From the IMG/VR virus record IMGVR_UViG_3300046167_000773, positions 1-45,871 of that record: DNA of 45,871 bases; one strand, given 5' to 3'. The DNA is from a virus. Under the pieces are notes generated by a model. That model ran no database searches. It saw nothing but the letters and a program-made list of their open reading frames with translations, and was not told the origin of the DNA. This document shows, piece after piece, positions 3,990 through 44,714 of this stretch. Position 1 is the first letter of the stretch, and every line of letters begins with the position of its first letter. The position numbers were made by a program, and so were the translations under genes.

Positions 3990-4403
3990 TTCAAACCTCC
4001 CGCAAAATCTGCCCATCGCTTTAAGTGGGATTTAAGCTGCCCCAGTCCCTCTCCATCAGCACAAACGAACCTCTGAACCCTGTTGTCGTAATACCGGCTA
4101 AACTGCCGTACCTCCATCGTTTCTGGACAACCCTCCACGACGTAAACGACAAATTGCTTGCCTTCACTTGTCAGCTTCTCAAACATGATTTCCTGCCCTC
4201 TTCCTAACGAACCGCCTTTCGCTTTCCACTCAATCATCAAAAACTTGCCGCCTATCTCCACCTATCGCGTCAACATCACTCATACCGATTTTGCGCGGGA
4301 AGCATTCAGCGAAGGTTTCAATTTTTGGGCGGAGCGTTTTGTTATAGCAGCCGTTTTTAGAACAGTCATAGCGCATCGGGTTATACCCGTTTGCACTAGT
4401 CAT
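3986..4403 (-). pseudogene. PD-(D/E)XK (VRR-NUC-like) nuclease split by a +1 frameshift
   Basis: Two overlapping frames together make one recognisable nuclease. The first part (4403-4230) reads from MTSANGYNPMRYDC through RPKIETFAECFPRKIGMSDVDAI, then leaves frame. The second part (4261-3986) continues VEIGGKFLMIEWKAKGGSLG and on to a helical C-terminus. Removing one base from the CC pair at 4261-4262 (GG on the coding strand) joins them as SDVDAI-VEIGGKFLMIEWK. That restores the D...ExK catalytic signature, which the frameshift otherwise cuts in two. ATG 4403 overlaps the upstream gene and has GGAG nearby. It could be a genuine mutation, an assembly error, or less likely a recoding site. Family role: resolving or trimming branched DNA in replication and recombination. 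Confidence 0.7.
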
Positions 4404-4776
4404 TAAGCAGAACTCCAGTTTTGTAAGGCTTGCCTTTTTCTTCAGCCCAACGAGCAGCAGCGGCTTTACCCTCAGCAATAGCCTGATCAATTTCCCTCGC
4501 CGCAAAAAACAAATCTGGGCGCAACATTTTCAGCGTTATCTCACCCTCTGAAATGCTCTCAATCATCATGGCGGACTTGACGTTAAAGAAATCTTGAGCC
4601 TTTTTAATCTTCTGAACTTGAGGGTAGCTAAGCGTTAAAAACGCAGCCGCCGCATAATAAGAACCCAAGTAATCAAAAGCTTTTTCGTTGTAGGGAGCCG
4701 CAAGCTCTAACATCGCTAGGCGTCTCTCTTTTTTATCCTTTGCAGTCTTTGCAAATAACGGATTGATACTTCCCAT
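4396..4776 (-). CDS. Unknown first protein of the leftward early operon
   Basis: This 126-residue protein is the promoter-proximal gene of the leftward operon, with AAGGAAG directly before the ATG. It is predicted mainly helical: KKERRLAMLELAAPYNEKAFDYLGSYYAAAAFLTLS, a Lys-rich middle, and an Ala-rich C-terminal helix (EIDQAIAEGKAAAARWAEEKG). It has no cysteines and no membrane segment, and I recognise no family. Its position implies immediate early expression once repression is relieved, so a control or host-interaction role is possible but not shown. Confidence 0.7.
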   Translation of the reverse strand: MGSINPLFAKTAKDKKERRLAMLELAAPYNEKAFDYLGSYYAAAAFLTLSYPQVQKIKKAQDFFNVKSAMMIESISEGEITLKMLRPDLFFAAREIDQAIAEGKAAAARWAEEKGKPYKTGVLLND

Positions 4777-25405: not shown

Positions 25406-26464
25406 CTATGGTTGATCTTCTTGTTCTTCCGCCCACTCTTGAGCCGTTGTGAATGAGCCGCCATCAATGTCACCGGCGGGCGCTGCGTCACCGCCACCAC
25501 CAGCAAGATCAATCCAGCTTGTGCCATCAAAGCCAAAGAACTTCTTTTCTACGGTGTTGAAGTAAATCATCCCTTCTTCGGGAGCAGCAGGAACCTGAGA
25601 AGCTGTTGCTTTAATCGCTCCACCTACAACGGAAGCACCGCCATAAACAACTAAGGCTGAGTCAGGCTTCTCCATAAAATCATCATTGATCTGCCAGTGA
25701 CTTTCTAAATTCCCCTTCAGTACATGTTCCGGAGCATTAAGAAAAAGTTGTGCAGTAGGATAAGTGCCGCTGTCATCCTTAGATAAATCCTTGCCCAGCT
25801 TATGCTGCTGAAGAAAGAACGCTTTGTTATGCCAACCGCTGTCATAGCCCGTAAAGATAGTCAGATCGAGACAATGCATTTCAAAGGTAACATTGGATTC
25901 TTGTTCGTAATCTTCCCATAAGCCCTGAGCATATATCCTTGCTACAGGGGGGTTTATCGTCTCTAACTCTTCCCCAACATACTTTCCGTGCTTGTGATCA
26001 AATTTAATAGCCGCAAAGTTATGAAGGTACTTATCAACGTCTATTTCATCATTAGCATCAAGAGGGAAAAGCTTTTTATCAAATTCATTCTCAAAGGCCA
26101 CATAGTTTTTATAACTCATTAAAGCCTGTTGCCAGCCAGGACGAACCCGCGCATCGGCTGCATCAACGTATGAAGTCTGATAAGCAACATCGCCATAAAT
26201 CGGGCTGGGAGCTAAAGATTCCCAATCACCGATAGCATGGATGACGCCTTCTTCATCTGCCGTAAATGCTCTTGCTGGCTCGATGATGTAAGAATCCCAA
26301 AGTCCATGCTTGTCCTTATCCGTTTTGATGCTTGAGATATTGATGCCTATCTCACCAGCCTGTAATTCGCCAGGAGCAGGGCGGCCCAAGCCTCGCTTAT
26401 GTTGAATCAATGTTGGCTCATTTGAATCATCAGCTTCAGTGATTTGAGTTGGTTCCTTAGACAT
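25406..26464 (-). CDS. Fibre-like structural protein, paralogue of the next gene
   Basis: This 352-residue protein has GGAG before the ATG. After a short acidic leader it reads HKRGLGRPAPGELQAGEIGINI, a phage fibre N-terminal motif, then about 290 residues alignable with the 26479-28386 protein (LWDSYIIEPARAF, GDWESLAPSP, RVRPGWQQALMSYKN and ENEFDK shared). It ends with the APEEGMIYF..FDGTSW module and IDGGSFTTAQEWAEEQ. It lies in the head module between portal and connector, not with the tail genes. Head-decorating fibre or neck whisker is possible. Confidence 0.65.
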   Translation of the reverse strand: MSKEPTQITEADDSNEPTLIQHKRGLGRPAPGELQAGEIGINISSIKTDKDKHGLWDSYIIEPARAFTADEEGVIHAIGDWESLAPSPIYGDVAYQTSYVDAADARVRPGWQQALMSYKNYVAFENEFDKKLFPLDANDEIDVDKYLHNFAAIKFDHKHGKYVGEELETINPPVARIYAQGLWEDYEQESNVTFEMHCLDLTIFTGYDSGWHNKAFFLQQHKLGKDLSKDDSGTYPTAQLFLNAPEHVLKGNLESHWQINDDFMEKPDSALVVYGGASVVGGAIKATASQVPAAPEEGMIYFNTVEKKFFGFDGTSWIDLAGGGGDAAPAGDIDGGSFTTAQEWAEEQEDQP

Positions 26465-26478
26465 TTTTTATGCTCCGT

Positions 26479-28386
26479 TTACGCTTCGTTGTATTGAACT
26501 TTTGCTGCTGCAATTCGTGATTCAAACTTCTCAATGAGTCCGCCAATAGCATTACCGATGGAATCCCGTAAACCTTCTACGGTTGTCTCATCTTGGGTTG
26601 CATCGCGGAGTGTTGATAGTGTTTCGATAAGTTCTGCGGGTGAGACAGTCTTAGGATTGCCGTCTGCATCGAGGTATTCTGTGGCCTTTACTGCGCCACC
26701 ATGAAACTCCCACTTGTCTACCCCGTTGAAGTTCAATTCACCGGCTGGTGAGTGGATTACAATGTGGCCTATGTTTGTTCTAGTAACCTCATAGCCACCT
26801 GAGCTAATGATGATGCCAGAGCCGCCCTGATTGCGAACGCCGGCTTTCACACCGATAGCAATAGAATCTCGGCCCTGACTAATTTCGCCGGCTGACTCGC
26901 CAATAGCTATACTTCTTAAGCCCTGAGAGGTTTTAGCAGCTTTAGTACCAATGGCAACACCACCATCGCCTTGGGTTGTCTCTGCTGCTGAGCTACCAAT
27001 AGCCACTGAGCCGGAACCTTGATCTGTTGCGGCAGCGCTAGCACCGACAGCCACCCCATAGGAACCTTGATTTGTTCCGCCCGCGCTAGCACCGACAGCC
27101 GTAGCTTGCGCCGCCTGATCTTCCATTGCGGCCTTGTAACCAATCGCTACACCGCCCCATCCCTGATTCTCTTTGCCCGAATCAGCGCCTACAGCAGTAG
27201 CATAATCCTGCTGGTTATTTCTGCCCGCATTACTACCGGCAGCCGTAGCGCATCTGCCCTGAAGTAATGCTCCCGCTGCGTTGCCAAGCGATAACGCGAT
27301 AAAGCCAGCATCCGGTTGTGCAGATAAAAGACCGCCTATAACCTCAACATGCCCAGTGTGCTGGTAGCTATTGCCACCCACATCTTCCCAAAGTCCAGAA
27401 TGAGAGTGATCCGCCCGAGCGTATTCGTCATGCGTATGAAACTTATCTGGGTTAGCAAACTGAATCCAATCCATCCCGTTGAAAGCCCAGAACTTATGAT
27501 CGTGGGTACTGAAGTACATCATTCCTTTCTCGGGAGTAGTGGGTTCCCGATTAGAAGTTGCTTTGATTGTCCCGCCCATGACAGCAGCATCGCCATAAAC
27601 ACATAAGGCTGCATCTGGCTTTTCACAATAGTCAGGATGTATCTGGGAGTGTCCGCCGTTAAGCCGCTCTAACGGAGCATTTACAAAGGTTTGAGCAGTA
27701 GGGTAAGTGCCACTTCCGTCTACAGATAAATCCTTTCCATTACGAGTCGTATCCACAAACAAAGCAGTATTGTGAAGTCTATCTCCCATGGAGTTGGTAT
27801 CAATCGTCAGTGAAAGACAGTCAATCGTGAAGCTAACACTCGGCTCTAAATCATCCTGCTCATATAAACCACCAGCCCTCAGAGTTGCCGATGGCTTTGA
27901 TGTAGGATTAAGCTTATCGTTAGTATATCTGCCATGGCTGAAGTACATTTTGATGGCTGCAAAGTTGTGAAGGTACTTCTCACGATCTATGTCAGTATTC
28001 TCGCCACCAGCAGGAATAGGGAACCACGTTTTGTCAAATTCATTCTCAAAGGCTAGAAAGTTTTTATAACTCATTAAAGCCTGTTGCCAGCCAGGACGAA
28101 CCCTTGTATCAGCCGCATTGATCCATGCAGTTTGATAAGCAATATCGCCCTGAACAGGACTGGGCGCTAACGATTCCCAATCACCAATAGCGTGTAACTT
28201 ACCTTCTTCGTCTGCCGTATACGCTCGGGCTGGCTCGATGATGTAAGAATCCCACAGTCCATGAACCTCCTTATCCGTTTCTACGCTTGAGATATTGATG
28301 CCTATTTCACCGGCCTCTAGCTCACCAGGAGCGGGACGGCCTAAGCCTCGCTTGTGCTTAATTTTTACAACTTCATCATTGCTCAT
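26479..28386 (-). CDS. Fibre-like protein with trimeric-adhesin-type head repeats
   Basis: This 635-residue protein is counted from the ATG at 28386 (AGGA eight bases upstream; a longer frame to 28431 overlaps the previous gene more). Residues 1-310 are a paralogue of the 352-residue protein downstream. HTHDEYARADHSHSGLWED follows. Residues about 375-520 contain nine or so 14-residue repeats of the type GSVAIGSSAAETTQG. These resemble the left-handed beta-roll of YadA/Hia adhesin heads and phage fibres. A helical end (LIEKFESRIAAAKVQYNEA) may trimerise. Sited in the head module. Confidence 0.7.
   Translation of the reverse strand: MSNDEVVKIKHKRGLGRPAPGELEAGEIGINISSVETDKEVHGLWDSYIIEPARAYTADEEGKLHAIGDWESLAPSPVQGDIAYQTAWINAADTRVRPGWQQALMSYKNFLAFENEFDKTWFPIPAGGENTDIDREKYLHNFAAIKMYFSHGRYTNDKLNPTSKPSATLRAGGLYEQDDLEPSVSFTIDCLSLTIDTNSMGDRLHNTALFVDTTRNGKDLSVDGSGTYPTAQTFVNAPLERLNGGHSQIHPDYCEKPDAALCVYGDAAVMGGTIKATSNREPTTPEKGMMYFSTHDHKFWAFNGMDWIQFANPDKFHTHDEYARADHSHSGLWEDVGGNSYQHTGHVEVIGGLLSAQPDAGFIALSLGNAAGALLQGRCATAAGSNAGRNNQQDYATAVGADSGKENQGWGGVAIGYKAAMEDQAAQATAVGASAGGTNQGSYGVAVGASAAATDQGSGSVAIGSSAAETTQGDGGVAIGTKAAKTSQGLRSIAIGESAGEISQGRDSIAIGVKAGVRNQGGSGIIISSGGYEVTRTNIGHIVIHSPAGELNFNGVDKWEFHGGAVKATEYLDADGNPKTVSPAELIETLSTLRDATQDETTVEGLRDSIGNAIGGLIEKFESRIAAAKVQYNEA
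26800..27300 (-). repeat. Tandem 42-bp-unit repeats coding for 14-residue beta-roll units
   Basis: Read on the minus strand, successive units encode GWGGVAIGYKAAMED, GSYGVAVGASAAATDQ, GSGSVAIGSSAAETTQ, GDGGVAIGTKAAKTSQ, GLRSIAIGESAGEISQ and GRDSIAIGVKAGVRNQ. The constant core is x-V/I-A-I/V-G-x-x-A, typical of YadA-like head repeats. The repeats favour slippage and copy-number change. Confidence 0.7.
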
Positions 28387-38309: not shown

Positions 38310-38334
38310 GATGCTTCACAAACAGGAGAACGAT

Positions 38335-38556
38335 ATGGAAATGGAAACTGGATGTTCAATTAAAGACGGCTGGCTAGTATTAGAAGCAGGTATGTTAGGT
38401 GATACAGAAATGACAATGCGCCTAGAAGGTGGCCATGGTGAGCAGGTTGAAATCTACTCTCCCGCTGGAAGGCAGACAGTCGCTTTGAGCAATCTACCAA
38501 TAAATCTTTGGCATTACCTAAAGGCGCTCCGAGAGCAGACTGAGGGGAAATATTAA
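38335..38556 (+). CDS. Moron cassette protein 1, unknown
   Basis: This 73-residue protein is counted from the ATG at 38335 (AGGAGAACGAT upstream; a longer frame starts at 38311 but lies before the RBS). MEMETGCSIKDGWLVLEAGMLGDTEMTMRLEGGHGEQVEIYSPAGRQTVALSNLP is beta-rich and is followed by a short helix (LWHYLKALREQT). Not recognised. It lies on the strand opposite the structural operon and is coupled by TAATG to the HTH gene. Confidence 0.6.
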   Translation: MEMETGCSIKDGWLVLEAGMLGDTEMTMRLEGGHGEQVEIYSPAGRQTVALSNLPINLWHYLKALREQTEGKY

Positions 38557-41349: not shown

Positions 41350-41606
41350 CCCAAAGGTACACTAAATCGAGCCGAACCGGCAAACCGTCCCGATTCAGGC
41401 CAGCCCATACAATCCAAACTTACACGCGGCCAGTCAAACATTCGCAACCAATGACTAACCATGATCGCCTACCATATCCGCGCATGATTTCGGGTTACGT
41501 TTTGGAAGAGTAGCGCCACATCATCGGGCCTCACCCTTTGCCAGTATAGGCAAGGCCAAAAGAACGCGGCAATCCTGGTTATATCAAAATATATTCTTAT
41601 GCTTAT

Positions 41607-41648
41607 TTATTCCTACTAATGGAATAATATTTATTGCATCTTTAGTAG
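41607..41648 (+). promoter_or_regulatory. Operator-like palindromes before the accessory operon
   Basis: TTATTCC-TACTAAT-GGAATAA (41607-41627) is a perfect 7-bp inverted repeat. CTACTAA (41613-41619) is repeated inverted as TTAGTAG (41642-41648). The surrounding AT-rich sequence could hold a -10 (TAATAT). The CTACTA word links it to the early control region and the moron operator. Confidence 0.45.
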
Positions 41649-41719
41649 CATTAGAGTTTAATGGTTTCAACGGCGGGGGATTCACACCACGCCACATTTC
41701 ACAACTGGAGCAACACAAC

Positions 41720-42082
41720 ATGCCTACACATAACACGCTAGCAACTGAATTTGAAAACGCCAAATCATTCGCCGCTGATTGTCGCGCTGAGATCATTACG
41801 CAATGGATGGAAAGCGGCGGTGATCGGTACGCCGATCTAGATGACATGATCTACACGCGGGCGCATGAAGAAGCCGACAGCCTTTGCATCTATACCCACG
41901 ACAACCGGATGCTGCTTCGCACCCTTGAGGATGCGGGCGTTGTTGATGACTACACCGATTTATTGTGCGGTGATGAGGATCACGAGCGGCGCATTGTAGT
42001 CATAGCCTACACCTTTTGGTGTCACGAAATAGGCGCGGCTTTGCATGAGCTTTTTGCAGAAGTTAAAAGTGAGGTGGCGTAA
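41720..42082 (+). CDS. Accessory operon protein 1, unknown
   Basis: This 120-residue acidic protein includes SFAADCRAEIITQWMESGGDRYADLDDMIYTRAHEEADSLCIYTHDNRMLLRTLEDAGVVDDYTDLLCGDEDHERRIVVIAYTFWCHEIGAALHELF and is probably mostly helical. AACTGGAG stands nine bases before the ATG, the same start-associated word as later genes in the operon. Similar acidic proteins occur in plasmid and phage accessory operons near anti-restriction genes, but no function is recognised. Confidence 0.65.
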   Translation: MPTHNTLATEFENAKSFAADCRAEIITQWMESGGDRYADLDDMIYTRAHEEADSLCIYTHDNRMLLRTLEDAGVVDDYTDLLCGDEDHERRIVVIAYTFWCHEIGAALHELFAEVKSEVA

Positions 42083-42183
42083 TGAACCGCTTTGACCTGG
42101 TGTATCTCGCCTTCATGACTTCAACAGTCGGCTTTTGCTTAACCATGCTGGCCGCTTCACTAATCATCAACTGGAGGCTTTGA
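42082..42183 (+). CDS. Very small membrane protein (33 aa)
   Basis: MNRFDLVYLAFMTSTVGFCLTMLAASLIINWRL is almost entirely one hydrophobic helix. It starts in a TAATG overlap with the previous gene and ends one base before the next ATG, containing that gene's GGAGG. A coupling peptide or tiny membrane effector is plausible. Confidence 0.5.
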   Translation: MNRFDLVYLAFMTSTVGFCLTMLAASLIINWRL

Positions 42184-42184
42184 C

Positions 42185-42367
42185 ATGAAAGGCTTTAGTC
42201 ATGTTCAGCTAATTGAATCCAAAATAAACGCGGCCAAAGATCAGGCCACACTCGCCCGCTTAGAAGTCACCACCACGCGACTTTATGAGGCGGGATTGAT
42301 TACAGCAAAACAGCTTGTATTTTTAGACGCCGCGCTTTGCTTGCACCCGCATTATCTAGGCGACTGA
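42185..42367 (+). CDS. Accessory operon protein 3, small helical
   Basis: This 60-residue protein, MKGFSHVQLIESKINAAKDQATLARLEVTTTRLYEAGLITAKQLVFLDAALCLHPHYLGD, is all-helical and reads like a small two-helix adaptor. AACTGGAGG lies eight bases before the ATG. Not recognised. Confidence 0.6.
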   Translation: MKGFSHVQLIESKINAAKDQATLARLEVTTTRLYEAGLITAKQLVFLDAALCLHPHYLGD

Positions 42368-42386
42368 TTCGCCATCCAGCCCTAAC

Positions 42387-42443
42387 CACCCGCTTAATTG
42401 CGGGTTTTTGGGTGCCGGCCATTGGCCACTTTCAAAACTGGAG
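42387..42443 (+). repeat. Terminator/start-associated cassette, copy 1
   Basis: ACCCGC-TTAATT-GCGGGT followed by TTTT (42388-42409) is a complete intrinsic terminator. GGCC-ATT-GGCC (42417-42427) forms a second hairpin, and TTCAAAACTGGAG (42431-42443) provides the Shine-Dalgarno nine bases before the next ATG. The same arrangement recurs before the next two genes. Confidence 0.8.
42388..42409 (+). terminator. Intrinsic terminator within the accessory operon
   Basis: The 6-bp GC-rich stem ACCCGC/GCGGGT with a six-base loop is followed by T residues at 42405-42409. No promoter is visible between it and the downstream gene, implying read-through control. Confidence 0.7.
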
Positions 42444-42452
42444 TAAGACACA

Positions 42453-42857
42453 ATGCAAAATGTTTTTAGCGTAACCGTAAGCCCCGAAGAAAACGATTTT
42501 TTAAGCGCTTATTTCCATTGCATGATTTGGGCAGACAGCCCAGAAGGCGCAAACCTTTTCCTTGAAGATTTGCACCCTGAGTTTAACCGCCAACACACTA
42601 TAGAGGCGCTTGGATTCTTCCTGAAATATGAGCATGCAATCGGCTCTGAAAACATAAGTCAGGCTGGCCATGATCTATGGTTAACGCGTCAAGGCCACGG
42701 TACTGGCTTCTGGGATCGTGGAGATGCATACAACGATTTAGACAGCGGTTACGACTTCGCGGACATGCTAACGCAGGGCGCGAAAACCTTGGGACATTCT
42801 GACATAGAATTTATTGAGTCTAGCCTGATCCGTGAAGGTGTAAACATAGATAGCTAA
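42453..42857 (+). CDS. Conserved phage/plasmid accessory protein (HDLWLTRQGHGTGFWDRG family)
   Basis: This 134-residue protein contains GHDLWLTRQGHGTGFWDRG (about residues 72-90), a motif that recurs in small phage and plasmid proteins of unknown role, followed by an acidic LDSGYDFADMLTQGAKTLG. The first half is helical and acidic. It is preceded by cassette copy 1. The family is recognised as conserved but uncharacterised; it often sits among anti-restriction-type accessory genes. Confidence 0.7.
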   Translation: MQNVFSVTVSPEENDFLSAYFHCMIWADSPEGANLFLEDLHPEFNRQHTIEALGFFLKYEHAIGSENISQAGHDLWLTRQGHGTGFWDRGDAYNDLDSGYDFADMLTQGAKTLGHSDIEFIESSLIREGVNIDS

Positions 42858-42883
42858 ACGACAGGCCACAAACCACTAAACTT

Positions 42884-42942
42884 GCGCCCGCTTAACTGCG
42901 GGCTTTCGCCGTACCGGCCTCTGGCCACATTCAAAACTGGAG
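42884..42942 (+). repeat. Terminator/start-associated cassette, copy 2
   Basis: GCCCGC-TTAACT-GCGGGC then TTT (42886-42906), a GGCC-TCT-GGCC hairpin (42916-42926), and TTCAAAACTGGAG ending eight bases before the ATG. Nearly identical over about 57 bases to copy 3 and closely similar to copy 1. Confidence 0.8.
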
Positions 42943-42950
42943 CGTTTAAA

Positions 42951-43586
42951 ATGGACTCAAATATTCAAACGGCTTTGCAAGGATTCGGCTTTACTATCGA
43001 GAATACCGGCGGCGGTTGTGACGCATGGGTTAAACAGTTTGACGGCAAGCGCAATCCAAGCGTTGAGCTTTCATGTGATCCTTACTTGATGATAACGCAG
43101 AACGGCGGCGCGGATATTGAAGAAAGGGATATTGACACCTGCGGCCTAACTTTGGGTTATTACGAATATTCAGTGGACGAAAAAAGCCACTTTTATACAA
43201 CAGTTGAATTTCTCAGCTTTGAGGGATTGCTTTTATTGCTAGTCAAAATGTTTTCTACGGATCAACCCGATTTTCCAGACTTCGATAACTGGCTTGCATT
43301 TGAGTTAGCAGCTAGAGATTTGCGGCAACATGGGTTTCATCCCGATTTAGAAAGGGATGACACAATGCCGTGCCTCTCATATCAAGGCGCATATTCGGAC
43401 GAAGGTTTCCCGCGTATTGAAATATGGTTTAACTGGTACGACTCCGATTTAAGCGAACAAGATGTAAAGCTTTACACGGTGACGCATTACAGTCCCAAGG
43501 GTGAGATCATTCTGGAACAAGAATTCGACAATTTAGAGCAAACGCTAACCGTTGCGCGGACTTTGCAAATACTAGCATCTAGCTAA
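42951..43586 (+). CDS. Accessory operon protein 5, unknown
   Basis: This 211-residue protein is counted from the ATG at 42951, which follows the cassette RBS (a longer frame from 42882 would read through the cassette and is rejected). It has two similar halves of alpha/beta type. The N-terminal FTIENTGGGCDAWVKQFDGK is a motif seen in small phage/plasmid proteins. The second half carries LEQEFDNLEQTLTVARTLQIL. It is acidic. Function not recognised. Confidence 0.65.
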   Translation: MDSNIQTALQGFGFTIENTGGGCDAWVKQFDGKRNPSVELSCDPYLMITQNGGADIEERDIDTCGLTLGYYEYSVDEKSHFYTTVEFLSFEGLLLLLVKMFSTDQPDFPDFDNWLAFELAARDLRQHGFHPDLERDDTMPCLSYQGAYSDEGFPRIEIWFNWYDSDLSEQDVKLYTVTHYSPKGEIILEQEFDNLEQTLTVARTLQILASS

Positions 43587-43605
43587 TTCCACATAGAGCC
43601 AATTT

Positions 43606-43664
43606 GCGCCCGCTTAACTGCGGGCTTTCGCCGTACCGGCCTCTGGCCAAATTCAAAACTGGAG
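43606..43664 (+). repeat. Terminator/start-associated cassette, copy 3
   Basis: GCCCGC-TTAACT-GCGGGC then TTT (43608-43628), GGCC-TCT-GGCC (43638-43648), and ATTCAAAACTGGAG ending nine bases before the next ATG. It matches copy 2 almost base for base, although the flanking genes are unrelated. Confidence 0.8.
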
Positions 43665-43673
43665 TACCACCTC

Positions 43674-43862
43674 ATGAAGCTATTAAAAACATTCGCAAAC
43701 TCTACCCATCGAACCGCCGCGATTCATTCCGTGGGCGGTAGTTACATTGTCCGCTGCTATGATCGGAGCCAGCGCAACGGGCTAATTCGCACCACTAGCG
43801 CGCCGGATTTCGACAGGGCTTGCGCTTTAGGCGCGGCTTTTGTTTACCAGTTGCAAGCTTAA
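43674..43862 (+). CDS. Accessory operon protein 6, small unknown
   Basis: This 62-residue protein, MKLLKTFANSTHRTAAIHSVGGSYIVRCYDRSQRNGLIRTTSAPDFDRACALGAAFVYQLQA, shows a small beta-beta-alpha pattern and is basic. It is preceded by cassette copy 3. Not recognised. Confidence 0.6.
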   Translation: MKLLKTFANSTHRTAAIHSVGGSYIVRCYDRSQRNGLIRTTSAPDFDRACALGAAFVYQLQA

Positions 43863-43880
43863 CCAGGAGAGGCCCACTTG

Positions 43881-44117
43881 ATGGATTCTTACGATATGCG
43901 ACGGGATCACGCGCCCATATTGATCCCCTTTGAAGATAGCCAGCAAGGCGGCAAGCCAGCCAAAGCCAAGCGAGGCGCTTCCAGATCGGGAAAGCCTCAG
44001 AGGTTATCCCAAGATCAGCAAATCGCGGACGCTTGGAATTCAATCTATGGCGGGTTAAACCTCGCCGGTATGGTTGCGCGGATCGTCACCGATTCGGGGC
44101 AAGACATTGTGAGATGA
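43881..44117 (+). CDS. Accessory operon protein 7, basic small protein
   Basis: This 78-residue protein is counted from ATG 43881; TTG at 43878 is possible (AGGAGAGG upstream suits either). The N-terminus is acidic, then a Lys/Arg/Gly-rich middle (GGKPAKAKRGASRSGKPQRLSQDQQ), then a helix (IADAWNSIYGGLNLAGMVARIV). The basic linker suggests nucleic-acid contact. It is the last gene of the operon, followed by tandem terminators. Confidence 0.55.
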   Translation: MDSYDMRRDHAPILIPFEDSQQGGKPAKAKRGASRSGKPQRLSQDQQIADAWNSIYGGLNLAGMVARIVTDSGQDIVR

Positions 44118-44128
44118 TCCAATGGCCT

Positions 44129-44148
44129 CCGATATTGATCGGTTTTTT
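44129..44148 (+). terminator. Intrinsic terminator 1 of the accessory operon
   Basis: CCGAT-ATTG-ATCGG followed by six T, 12 bases after the last stop codon. It is followed by CTCAG...CTGAG, a second weak stem, and the whole unit is repeated downstream. Confidence 0.7.
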
Positions 44149-44284: not shown

Positions 44285-44384
44285 GACTGGTGAAAATCGC
44301 GGGGGGGACTCGTGAAAATCTCCATCAGACTCGTGAAAATCTCCGATCAGACTCGTGAAAATCTCCGACAGGCTCGTGAAAATC
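44285..44384. repeat. Five phased direct repeats (GACTCGTGAAAATC)
   Basis: Copies start at 44285, 44307, 44328, 44350 and 44371. The middle three are identical over 14 bases; the first and last differ by one. Spacings of 22, 21, 22, 21 bp put every copy on the same face of the helix. The array ends exactly at the stop of the HNH gene, with two G-runs (44281-44285, 44301-44307) at its left edge. Candidates are protein-binding iterons for packaging, a second origin or partition-like site, or a phage control element. Confidence 0.75.
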
Positions 44385-44714
44385 TCAACCCCAGCCTTCA
44401 GGAAATCCGTCCAGGTTTGTTGGCTTAACCTTACTGTTCTCAACCCAACTGGCCTTCTTACTGTTGCAGCTATGGCAAACCATTTGCAGGTTACTCAACG
44501 TTAAAGCTAGATCAGGGCGCTTCACACGAGGCTCGATATGATCCACAACTGCTTGCGCCCGCTGGCCTCGCCTCACCGTAAAGTCTAGCCTTCCACCGCA
44601 GAACGCGCATGGCCTATTCGCAGCCTTCCATTGCGCCCTCACTTTGTTCCTGAGATTTCGCCACGGCTGAGATTGATAAAACCCGTCAAGTCTATCGGCC
44701 ATAGCCATACTCAT
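44385..44714 (-). CDS. HNH endonuclease
   Basis: This 109-residue protein has CAFCGGRLDF (first zinc pair), AQAVVDHIEPRVKRPDLALTLSNLQMVCHSCNSKK, the complete DH...N...H/CxxC signature of HNH nucleases, and a short YQSQPWRNLRNKVRAQW N-terminus seen in phage HNH proteins that assist terminase at cos. The start is ambiguous (ATG 44714, 44708 or 44702). It is last in the leftward early operon and ends at the direct-repeat array, so cutting near that array is an attractive idea. Confidence 0.85.
   Translation of the reverse strand: MSMAMADRLDGFYQSQPWRNLRNKVRAQWKAANRPCAFCGGRLDFTVRRGQRAQAVVDHIEPRVKRPDLALTLSNLQMVCHSCNSKKASWVENSKVKPTNLDGFPEGWG

Follow-up and report, generated by a model that had tools for sequence, protein, structure and literature searches.

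The operon and its cassettes

The window, by which we mean the whole stretch of 45,871 bases analysed here, is the record of an uncultured virus. It encodes a large terminase of the HK97/HK022 type, an HK97-like portal and head genes, an integrase and replication genes. A cytosine methyltransferase gene adjoins the operon of interest and a NinG/Rap-like junction endonuclease, a recombination function, is encoded at positions 6-389 of the minus strand (phrog_5034, E=1e-15). On the basis of this gene content the virus is probably a temperate, siphovirus-like, HK97-like phage. A search for relatives of the terminase found none among 84,980 genomes. Two further repeats were noted elsewhere in the window. 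Three tandem copies of a 22-23-nt unit (ATCCGGCGATTyCGsCACATGC, 2352-2420), like the iterons of a lambda-O-type origin, lie within a replication-initiator-like gene (2073-2732), and neighbouring genes carry a coding repeat of about 400 nt (26003-26398 and 27949-28353, 81% identical) that is likely to be a duplicated domain.

The operon occupies 41720-44117 on the plus strand (Table 1). It holds three copies of one direct-repeat family (D2), which we call cassettes C1, C2 and C3. Each reads, from 5′ to 3′, as a 6-bp hairpin followed by a short T-run (hairpin 1), a linker containing GT(A/G)nC, a second hairpin of the form GGCCnnnGGCC (hairpin 2), the 13-mer TTCAAAACTGGAG and the ATG of the next gene. 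The protein encoded at 42453 has distant relatives in large phages of gamma-proteobacteria. Beyond the operon, between its end and an HNH gene, the plus strand carries several direct repeats of GACTCGTGAAAATCTCC (44285-44400), which may be iterons or binding sites.

Table 1. Features of the cassette operon and its control region, in window coordinates. G001 is the related virus discussed in the text.
Feature	Position	Strand	Remarks
Operator-like inverted repeat, TATTCC-n7-GGAATA	41608-41626		Upstream of predicted operon promoter; read from the sequence, putative operator
Predicted operon promoter, TTGCAT-17-TTTAAT	41634-41662	+	From alignment of both control regions
Leader of first gene	41672-41710	+	Hairpin GGCG...CGCC (41672-41693), then TTCACAACTGGAG (41698-41710); from folds
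First operon gene	41720-42082	+	120 aa, no assigned function; unrelated to first gene of G001
ORF	42082-42183	+	33 aa; overlaps preceding stop codon, without cassette
ORF	42185-42367	+	60 aa; AACTGGAG alone in front
Cassette C1	42380-42443
C1 hairpin 1	42388-42405	+	ACCCGC-n6-GCGGGT then TTTT; top score among the seven
C1 hairpin 2	42417-42427	+	GGCCATTGGCC
C1 13-mer	42431-42443	+	TTCAAAACTGGAG, 9 nt 5′ of ATG
Gene	42453-42857	+	134 aa, phrog_1915 (function not assigned)
Cassette C2	42879-42942
C2 hairpin 1	42886-42903	+	GCCCGC-n6-GCGGGC then TTT
C2 hairpin 2	42916-42926	+	GGCCTCTGGCC
C2 13-mer	42930-42942	+	TTCAAAACTGGAG, 8 nt 5′ of ATG
Gene	42951-43586	+	211 aa; no relative within phage collection
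Cassette C3	43601-43664
C3 hairpin 1	43608-43625	+	GCCCGC-n6-GCGGGC then TTT
C3 hairpin 2	43638-43648	+	GGCCTCTGGCC
C3 13-mer	43652-43664	+	TTCAAAACTGGAG, 9 nt 5′ of ATG; probable chimera junction at or beside it
Gene	43674-43862	+	62 aa; sole operon gene common to G001 (90% protein, 86% DNA identity)
Terminator-like site	44129-44148	+	Six-T run, 3′ of last gene; surroundings conserved in G001

The original prediction, made from the window alone, described the copies as almost identical. This is fully true of C2 and C3, which share 97% identity over 64 nt, and only loosely true of C1 (64% identical ungapped, 83-84% with a 1-nt gap). The same prediction placed the start sequence 8-9 bases from the ATG, and AACTGGAG also in front of the genes at 42185 and 41720. 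The measured GGAG-to-ATG distances of 9 (C1), 8 (C2) and 9 nt (C3) agree, and both additional sites are present, that at 41720 with one mismatch. The 13-mer occurs exactly three times in the 45.9 kb record, all within cassettes. The pattern GGCCNNNGGCC (GGCCnnnGGCC) is likewise found in cassettes only, three in the window and four in G001, and Markov simulations of the window give a mean of 0.5. The cassette repeat is well beyond chance. On the minus strand a lone TACAAAACTGGAG, one mismatch from the 13-mer, lies at 4413-4425. It falls where a YdaS-like gene (4396-4776) ends, and an ATG follows after about 9 nt. The idea that the neighbouring cytosine methyltransferase acts on GGCC was considered and dropped. 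No link was found, and the totals of 155 and 114 GGCC sites in the two viruses are somewhat under the second-order Markov expectation of 193 and 165.

The control region upstream of the first gene (41576-41726) is 82% identical to that of G001 in a BLAST comparison. The predicted operon promoter matches the −35 consensus weakly and was missed by the scan for sigma70-like sites; G001 has a promoter-like site in the same place (TTGCCT-17-TCTAAT) and retains a shorter version, TATTC...GAATA, of the operator-like repeat. Behind the conserved promoter-like site the leader of the first gene has the same layout in both viruses, a hairpin and then the 13-mer with one change (TTCAGAACTGGAG at 575 in G001), with the consensus GGCG...CGCC-ACA-(A/T)TTCA(C/G)AACTGGAG. 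The leader hairpin is predicted to lie at or near the 5′ end of the transcript. Judged by sequence, the cassettes repeat the last part of this leader, namely a hairpin ending in GCC, about three bases and the 13-mer, minus the promoter.

The same cassettes around different genes in a related virus

Viral contigs were scanned for hairpin 2 together with the 13-mer, which brought up G001 (IMGVR_UViG_3300046167_000804, 39,239 bases) and L005. The latter is a near-copy of the window, so the independent cassette-bearing genomes number two. G001 is syntenic with the window throughout, at 72-96% DNA identity. It carries four cassettes at the same locus, before the genes at 1312, 1951, 2422 and 2717 (copies gC1 to gC4), and the 13-mer with one mismatch and without hairpins before 1660.

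Comparison of the two operons by blastp gives a single homologous pair, 43674 and G001:2717; the other genes are unrelated. DNA similarity runs through the control region and ends at 41726, just as the first gene begins. From there to about 43620 it is restricted to the cassettes, ending near the start codons, and it resumes at the last cassette and the last gene. Since similarity is limited to the cassettes and just one protein pair is shared, the replacement of genes between conserved cassettes is seen directly.

The cassette was also sought more widely, as the original prediction had recommended for related phages and plasmids. There are four copies in G001 and those of the near-copy L005, and none in the phage and plasmid collections. 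When the region was compared with phage and plasmid nucleotide sequences no cassette match came back, the one match being a coding stretch of 42453. The exact cassette pattern has no occurrence in 84,980 genomes, and there are no further convincing copies in the phage, plasmid, viral or 84,980-genome collections. A scan with the methyltransferase that adjoins the operon yielded 80 loci and, L005/L066 aside, no additional cassette carrier. Among the viral contigs a pattern match in L007 was judged to be chance, and thirteen other contigs with TTCAAAACTGGAGTA...ATG hold single unrepeated sites, mostly chance.

C3 stands in front of the same gene as gC4 and is its positional counterpart. To the left of the 13-mer C3 differs from C2 at 1 of 48 positions and from gC4 at 16 of 48. 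To the right, over the nine spacer positions, the relationship is reversed: C3 differs from C2 at all nine and from gC4 at two, after which comes the gene that is 86% identical. Because C3 resembles C2 on the left and gC4 on the right, the simplest account is that it is a chimera, with a recombination or gene conversion junction in or beside the 13-mer. In G001 the first three copies show 6-8 differences among themselves and 14-15 from copy 4. Homogenisation of cassettes within genomes seems to outpace the divergence of the neighbouring gene. It had been suggested that the cassette could let genes be swapped by homologous recombination. That proposal is the best supported of those made, given unrelated genes between the same cassettes in a syntenic virus and the junction inside C3.

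Conservation, hairpins and transcription signals

The seven cassettes of the two viruses were aligned over 74 columns (alignment A1). The 13-mer is the same in all seven copies, at 13 of 13 positions, while the surrounding cassette bases vary. Every one of the 70 pair cells is a standard pair, compared with 29-50% in slid controls. One pair in hairpin 1 is compensated, being A-U in four copies and G-C in three, a result reached by 12 of 500 shuffles, and we caution that relatedness of the copies inflates such covariation evidence. A role for hairpin 1 as RNA, or as palindromic DNA, is modestly supported by this comparison. The GGCC stem of hairpin 2 is invariant in the seven copies and its 3-nt loop varies; the alignment says little for hairpin 2 as a structured RNA. 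A 12-column linker (columns 23-34) separates the helices, and the few columns that stay invariant between the hairpins are GT and then C. Rfam covariance models give no match to the cassette up to E=5.

Could the cassettes be inert relics, in which a shared terminator and a shared ribosome binding site were duplicated together with genes and serve ordinary expression only? The two viruses are close, C2 and C3 are recent copies and the downstream genes have no assigned function, all of which would suit such an origin. However, loops and linkers have changed while the 13-mer and the two stems show either invariance or compensation, and nearly all genes have been exchanged between the operons with the cassettes kept. 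We regard inert relics as unlikely.

In six of the seven copies hairpin 1 follows the stop codon of the preceding gene by approximately 20-30 nt, and so is placed where a 3′-end terminator would sit; the distance in gC1 is about 60 nt. The original prediction assigned an intrinsic terminator to each cassette. A GC-rich hairpin with a short T-run is indeed present in all copies, but only the C1 hairpin passes a consensus terminator scan, the C2 and C3 stems being followed by just TTT, and the d'Aubenton-Carafa terminator scores of all seven hairpins are below zero (−0.4 to −13). This score, computed with our own implementation, separates poorly, since the operon-end hairpin is negative too (−5.1). 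With a short T-run and scores below zero, hairpin 1 may be best described as a weak or leaky terminator, and partial polarity from it is plausible. Attenuation in the strict sense, with a leader peptide and mutually exclusive hairpins conserved across copies, finds no support. A conserved switch by sequestration of the Shine-Dalgarno (SD) sequence was also rejected. In the model fold of C3 the loop region of hairpin 2 pairs with the SD, but this needs the UCU loop of C2 and C3 and does not extend to the other copies.

A promoter scan found no sigma70-like site on the plus strand between 41.22 and 44.2 kb, including inside and just before the cassettes. This agrees with the earlier statement that no promoter is visible within the cassettes, and the sequence is consistent with read-through from one upstream promoter. 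The closest known analogues, the ESAS of mycobacteriophages and the PeSL of T4, do carry promoters (PMC11373665, PMC4503421), and the phage could use a non-sigma70 promoter. Nevertheless the negative scan and the few invariant columns between the hairpins make a hidden promoter in each cassette very unlikely.

The pair of hairpins had also been proposed as a put-like antitermination element. The put antitermination RNA of phage HK022 consists of two stem-loops about one nucleotide apart and occurs once near each early promoter. In favour of such a reading, two adjacent stem-loops would be present in the transcript of a phage operon of early type, and the terminase belongs with those nearest to HK022/HK97-type phages. 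The cassette differs in spacing, with about 12 nt between the hairpins, in position and in copy number, and its first hairpin resembles a terminator. Repetition between genes would be redundant once polymerase had been modified, and there is no Rfam family match. We consider put-like antitermination extremely improbable, and this part of the original prediction finds no support.

A further possibility concerns mRNA processing or stability. Cleavage between the hairpins would leave hairpin 1 guarding the upstream 3′ end and hairpin 2 the next 5′ end. The short single-stranded linker would suit this, as would the comparable hairpin in the leader of the first gene, with which the transcript is predicted to begin. 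On the other hand the stems are just 4-6 bp and RNase III substrates have longer ones, the linker is not AU-rich and hairpin 2 is only moderately probable in C2, C3 and gC3 (0.36-0.54). Such processing appears quite unlikely.

Related elements and a proposed model of gene exchange

Two classes of repeated phage element are relevant to the question of how phages exchange single small accessory genes without breaking expression. The first is PeSL, reportedly the subject of Arbiol et al. 2010 and Comeau et al. 2014. In T4-type phages, as described in two papers that cite those studies (PMC4503421, PMC3950731), PeSL contain both an early promoter and a terminator stem-loop, lie at the gene borders of a variable region and are thought to mediate shuffling of unrelated small genes. 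The cassettes are similar in being repeated intergenic stem-loop elements at gene borders that flank unrelated genes in related genomes, the window and G001. Hairpin 1 and its short T-run, present in all seven copies, may correspond to the PeSL terminator, the scores given above being weak. In contrast to PeSL, the cassette has no promoter, has a second hairpin and a fixed start sequence, and is found in a siphovirus-like lineage with an HK97-type terminase. PeSL is the nearest functional counterpart.

The second class comprises the start-associated sequences (SAS) of cluster K mycobacteriophages. A SAS is a 13-bp asymmetric sequence, GGGATAGGAGCCC, with up to 2 deviations and a GGAG core, located at a distance of 3-9 bp ahead of the start codon in several unrelated genes of one genome; it is conserved beyond what rRNA pairing explains and part of the sites have an upstream inverted repeat (PMC3203893). 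That repeat, ESAS, is an imperfect inverted repeat of 17 bp. RNA pairing is not supported for it (PMC3203893), and later work located a putative promoter within it (PMC11373665). The original prediction drew attention to the resemblance, which holds for layout and fails in sequence, promoter and repeat details. The window and G001 share with the mycobacteriophages a 13-bp asymmetric sequence larger than the SD core before unrelated genes, at 8-9 bases from the ATG in the three cassettes of the one and the four of the other. The cassette sequence TTCAAAACTGGAG, invariant in 7/7 copies, is not that of SAS. Unlike ESAS, the cassettes have stems of 4-6 bp with one covarying pair, a terminator-like hairpin and no promoter, and are confined to one operon. 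In form, SAS come closest. Since the SAS sequence is lacking, as is the promoter of ESAS and PeSL, the cassette is a member of neither group and acts like a promoterless mixture of both.

Two other comparisons are informative. The haloarchaeal virus HGTV-1 has a promoter/inverted-repeat motif with a TATA-like box before most left-arm genes, for which shuffling has been proposed (PMC3950731). The cassettes resemble it as a repeated conserved motif that includes an inverted repeat and precedes genes; HGTV-1 differs as an archaeal virus with a TATA-like box, and a terminator-like hairpin and ribosome-binding sequence are not described for it. Lambdoid morons are stand-alone accessory genes with their own promoter and terminator, and recombine at gene borders. 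They too are accessory genes between conserved expression signals with border recombination, whereas the cassette genes form a chain within a single operon, linked by copies of one promoterless element.

We consider it fairly probable that each cassette is a promoterless intercistronic element combining a leaky 3′-end hairpin with a duplicated leader and start site, providing uniform expression and homology for gene exchange. The left half, a weak intrinsic-terminator-like hairpin, would close the upstream gene. The right half, a copy of the end of the operon leader with a small GC hairpin and the 13-mer, would open the next. A single promoter before 41720 would drive the operon, and polymerase would pass each weak terminator in part, giving falling expression with an identical translation start for each gene. 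Homologous recombination between near-identical cassettes could then insert, remove or swap the intervening genes with expression undisturbed, and such exchange may be of selective advantage. Approximately 60 bp of homology may suffice for phage recombination systems that tolerate short or diverged homology, and a Rap-like gene is present in this phage. Temperate phages are documented to recombine diverged sequences in a relaxed manner (PMC2327257, PMC3945230). The NinG/Rap-like endonuclease may assist recombination at short homology; among the phage genes no single-strand annealing recombinase was recognised. Promoters in PeSL and ESAS blur the distinction between expression and recombination roles. 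A promoterless cassette with a junction in a collinear pair of genomes makes the idea of a docking site directly testable.

The conservation of the 13-mer deserves separate consideration. Invariance of all 13 positions, including those outside GGAG, exceeds the need of a passive recombination site and hints at a binding function. The 13-mer, with or without hairpin 2, might bind a protein or small RNA from the phage or the host, which would place the accessory genes under joint translational control as proposed for SAS, with exchange a by-product. Most of the 13-mer lies outside the GGAG core that can pair with 16S rRNA, the surrounding bases vary, the operon leader retains the 13-mer with one change and a more distant phage, L022, has a fixed start sequence of its own, TTCGACAGGAG, likewise behind hairpins. 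Against this, the 13-mer is limited to one operon and the lone minus-strand site with one mismatch, no candidate regulator was identified and homogenising recombination centred on the 13-mer would preserve it equally well. Joint control as the primary function is a possibility to which we give the lesser weight. In either case the cassettes add an example, independent and unrelated, in which conservation of a start-associated sequence extends past the Shine-Dalgarno core.

More speculatively, and somewhat less probable again, the operon might be an integron-like accessory array without a site-specific recombinase. Each gene would arrive flanked by identical promoterless cassettes and be docked by homologous recombination at the 13-mer. 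A phage factor would also recognise the 13-mer as a dedicated start signal, and a new gene would in this way join one regulon at once. If this were true, analogous hairpin-plus-start arrays of other sequence, in L022 and L062, would point to a recurring phage strategy.

L022, with a terminase 59% identical to that of the window, has five start sites with its fixed sequence. L062 has three hairpin-plus-start junctions, one of which shares the L022 start sequence; L062 and L044 were found by searching with that sequence. Hairpins with GUAA or GUGA loops occur three times in L022 (2147-3620), three times in L062 (2350-3464) and once in L044 (1830-1870), all on the minus strand. In these seven cases the stop codon of the upstream gene lies in frame within the loop and the start signal of the next gene is close behind. 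The stems differ yet pair (GGGCGC/GCGCCC, GGGUCGC/GCGGCCC, GGUC/GACC and GGCCGC/GCGGCC). These observations suggest that hairpin-plus-start junctions are recurrent in phage small-gene operons. Repeats in L132 were rejected as cassettes and are coding repeats instead. A search with TTTCGACAGGAGAA, a pattern biased toward terminators by its TTT, returned 26 contigs with mostly single terminator-plus-start junctions, the repeated set being confined to L022 and a related set to L062. In the window itself, the leader of the small plus-strand genes at 38.3-39.2 kb contains TTCACAAACAGGAGAACGATATG (38315-38337, plus strand), which is intermediate between the 13-mer and the L022 start sequence.
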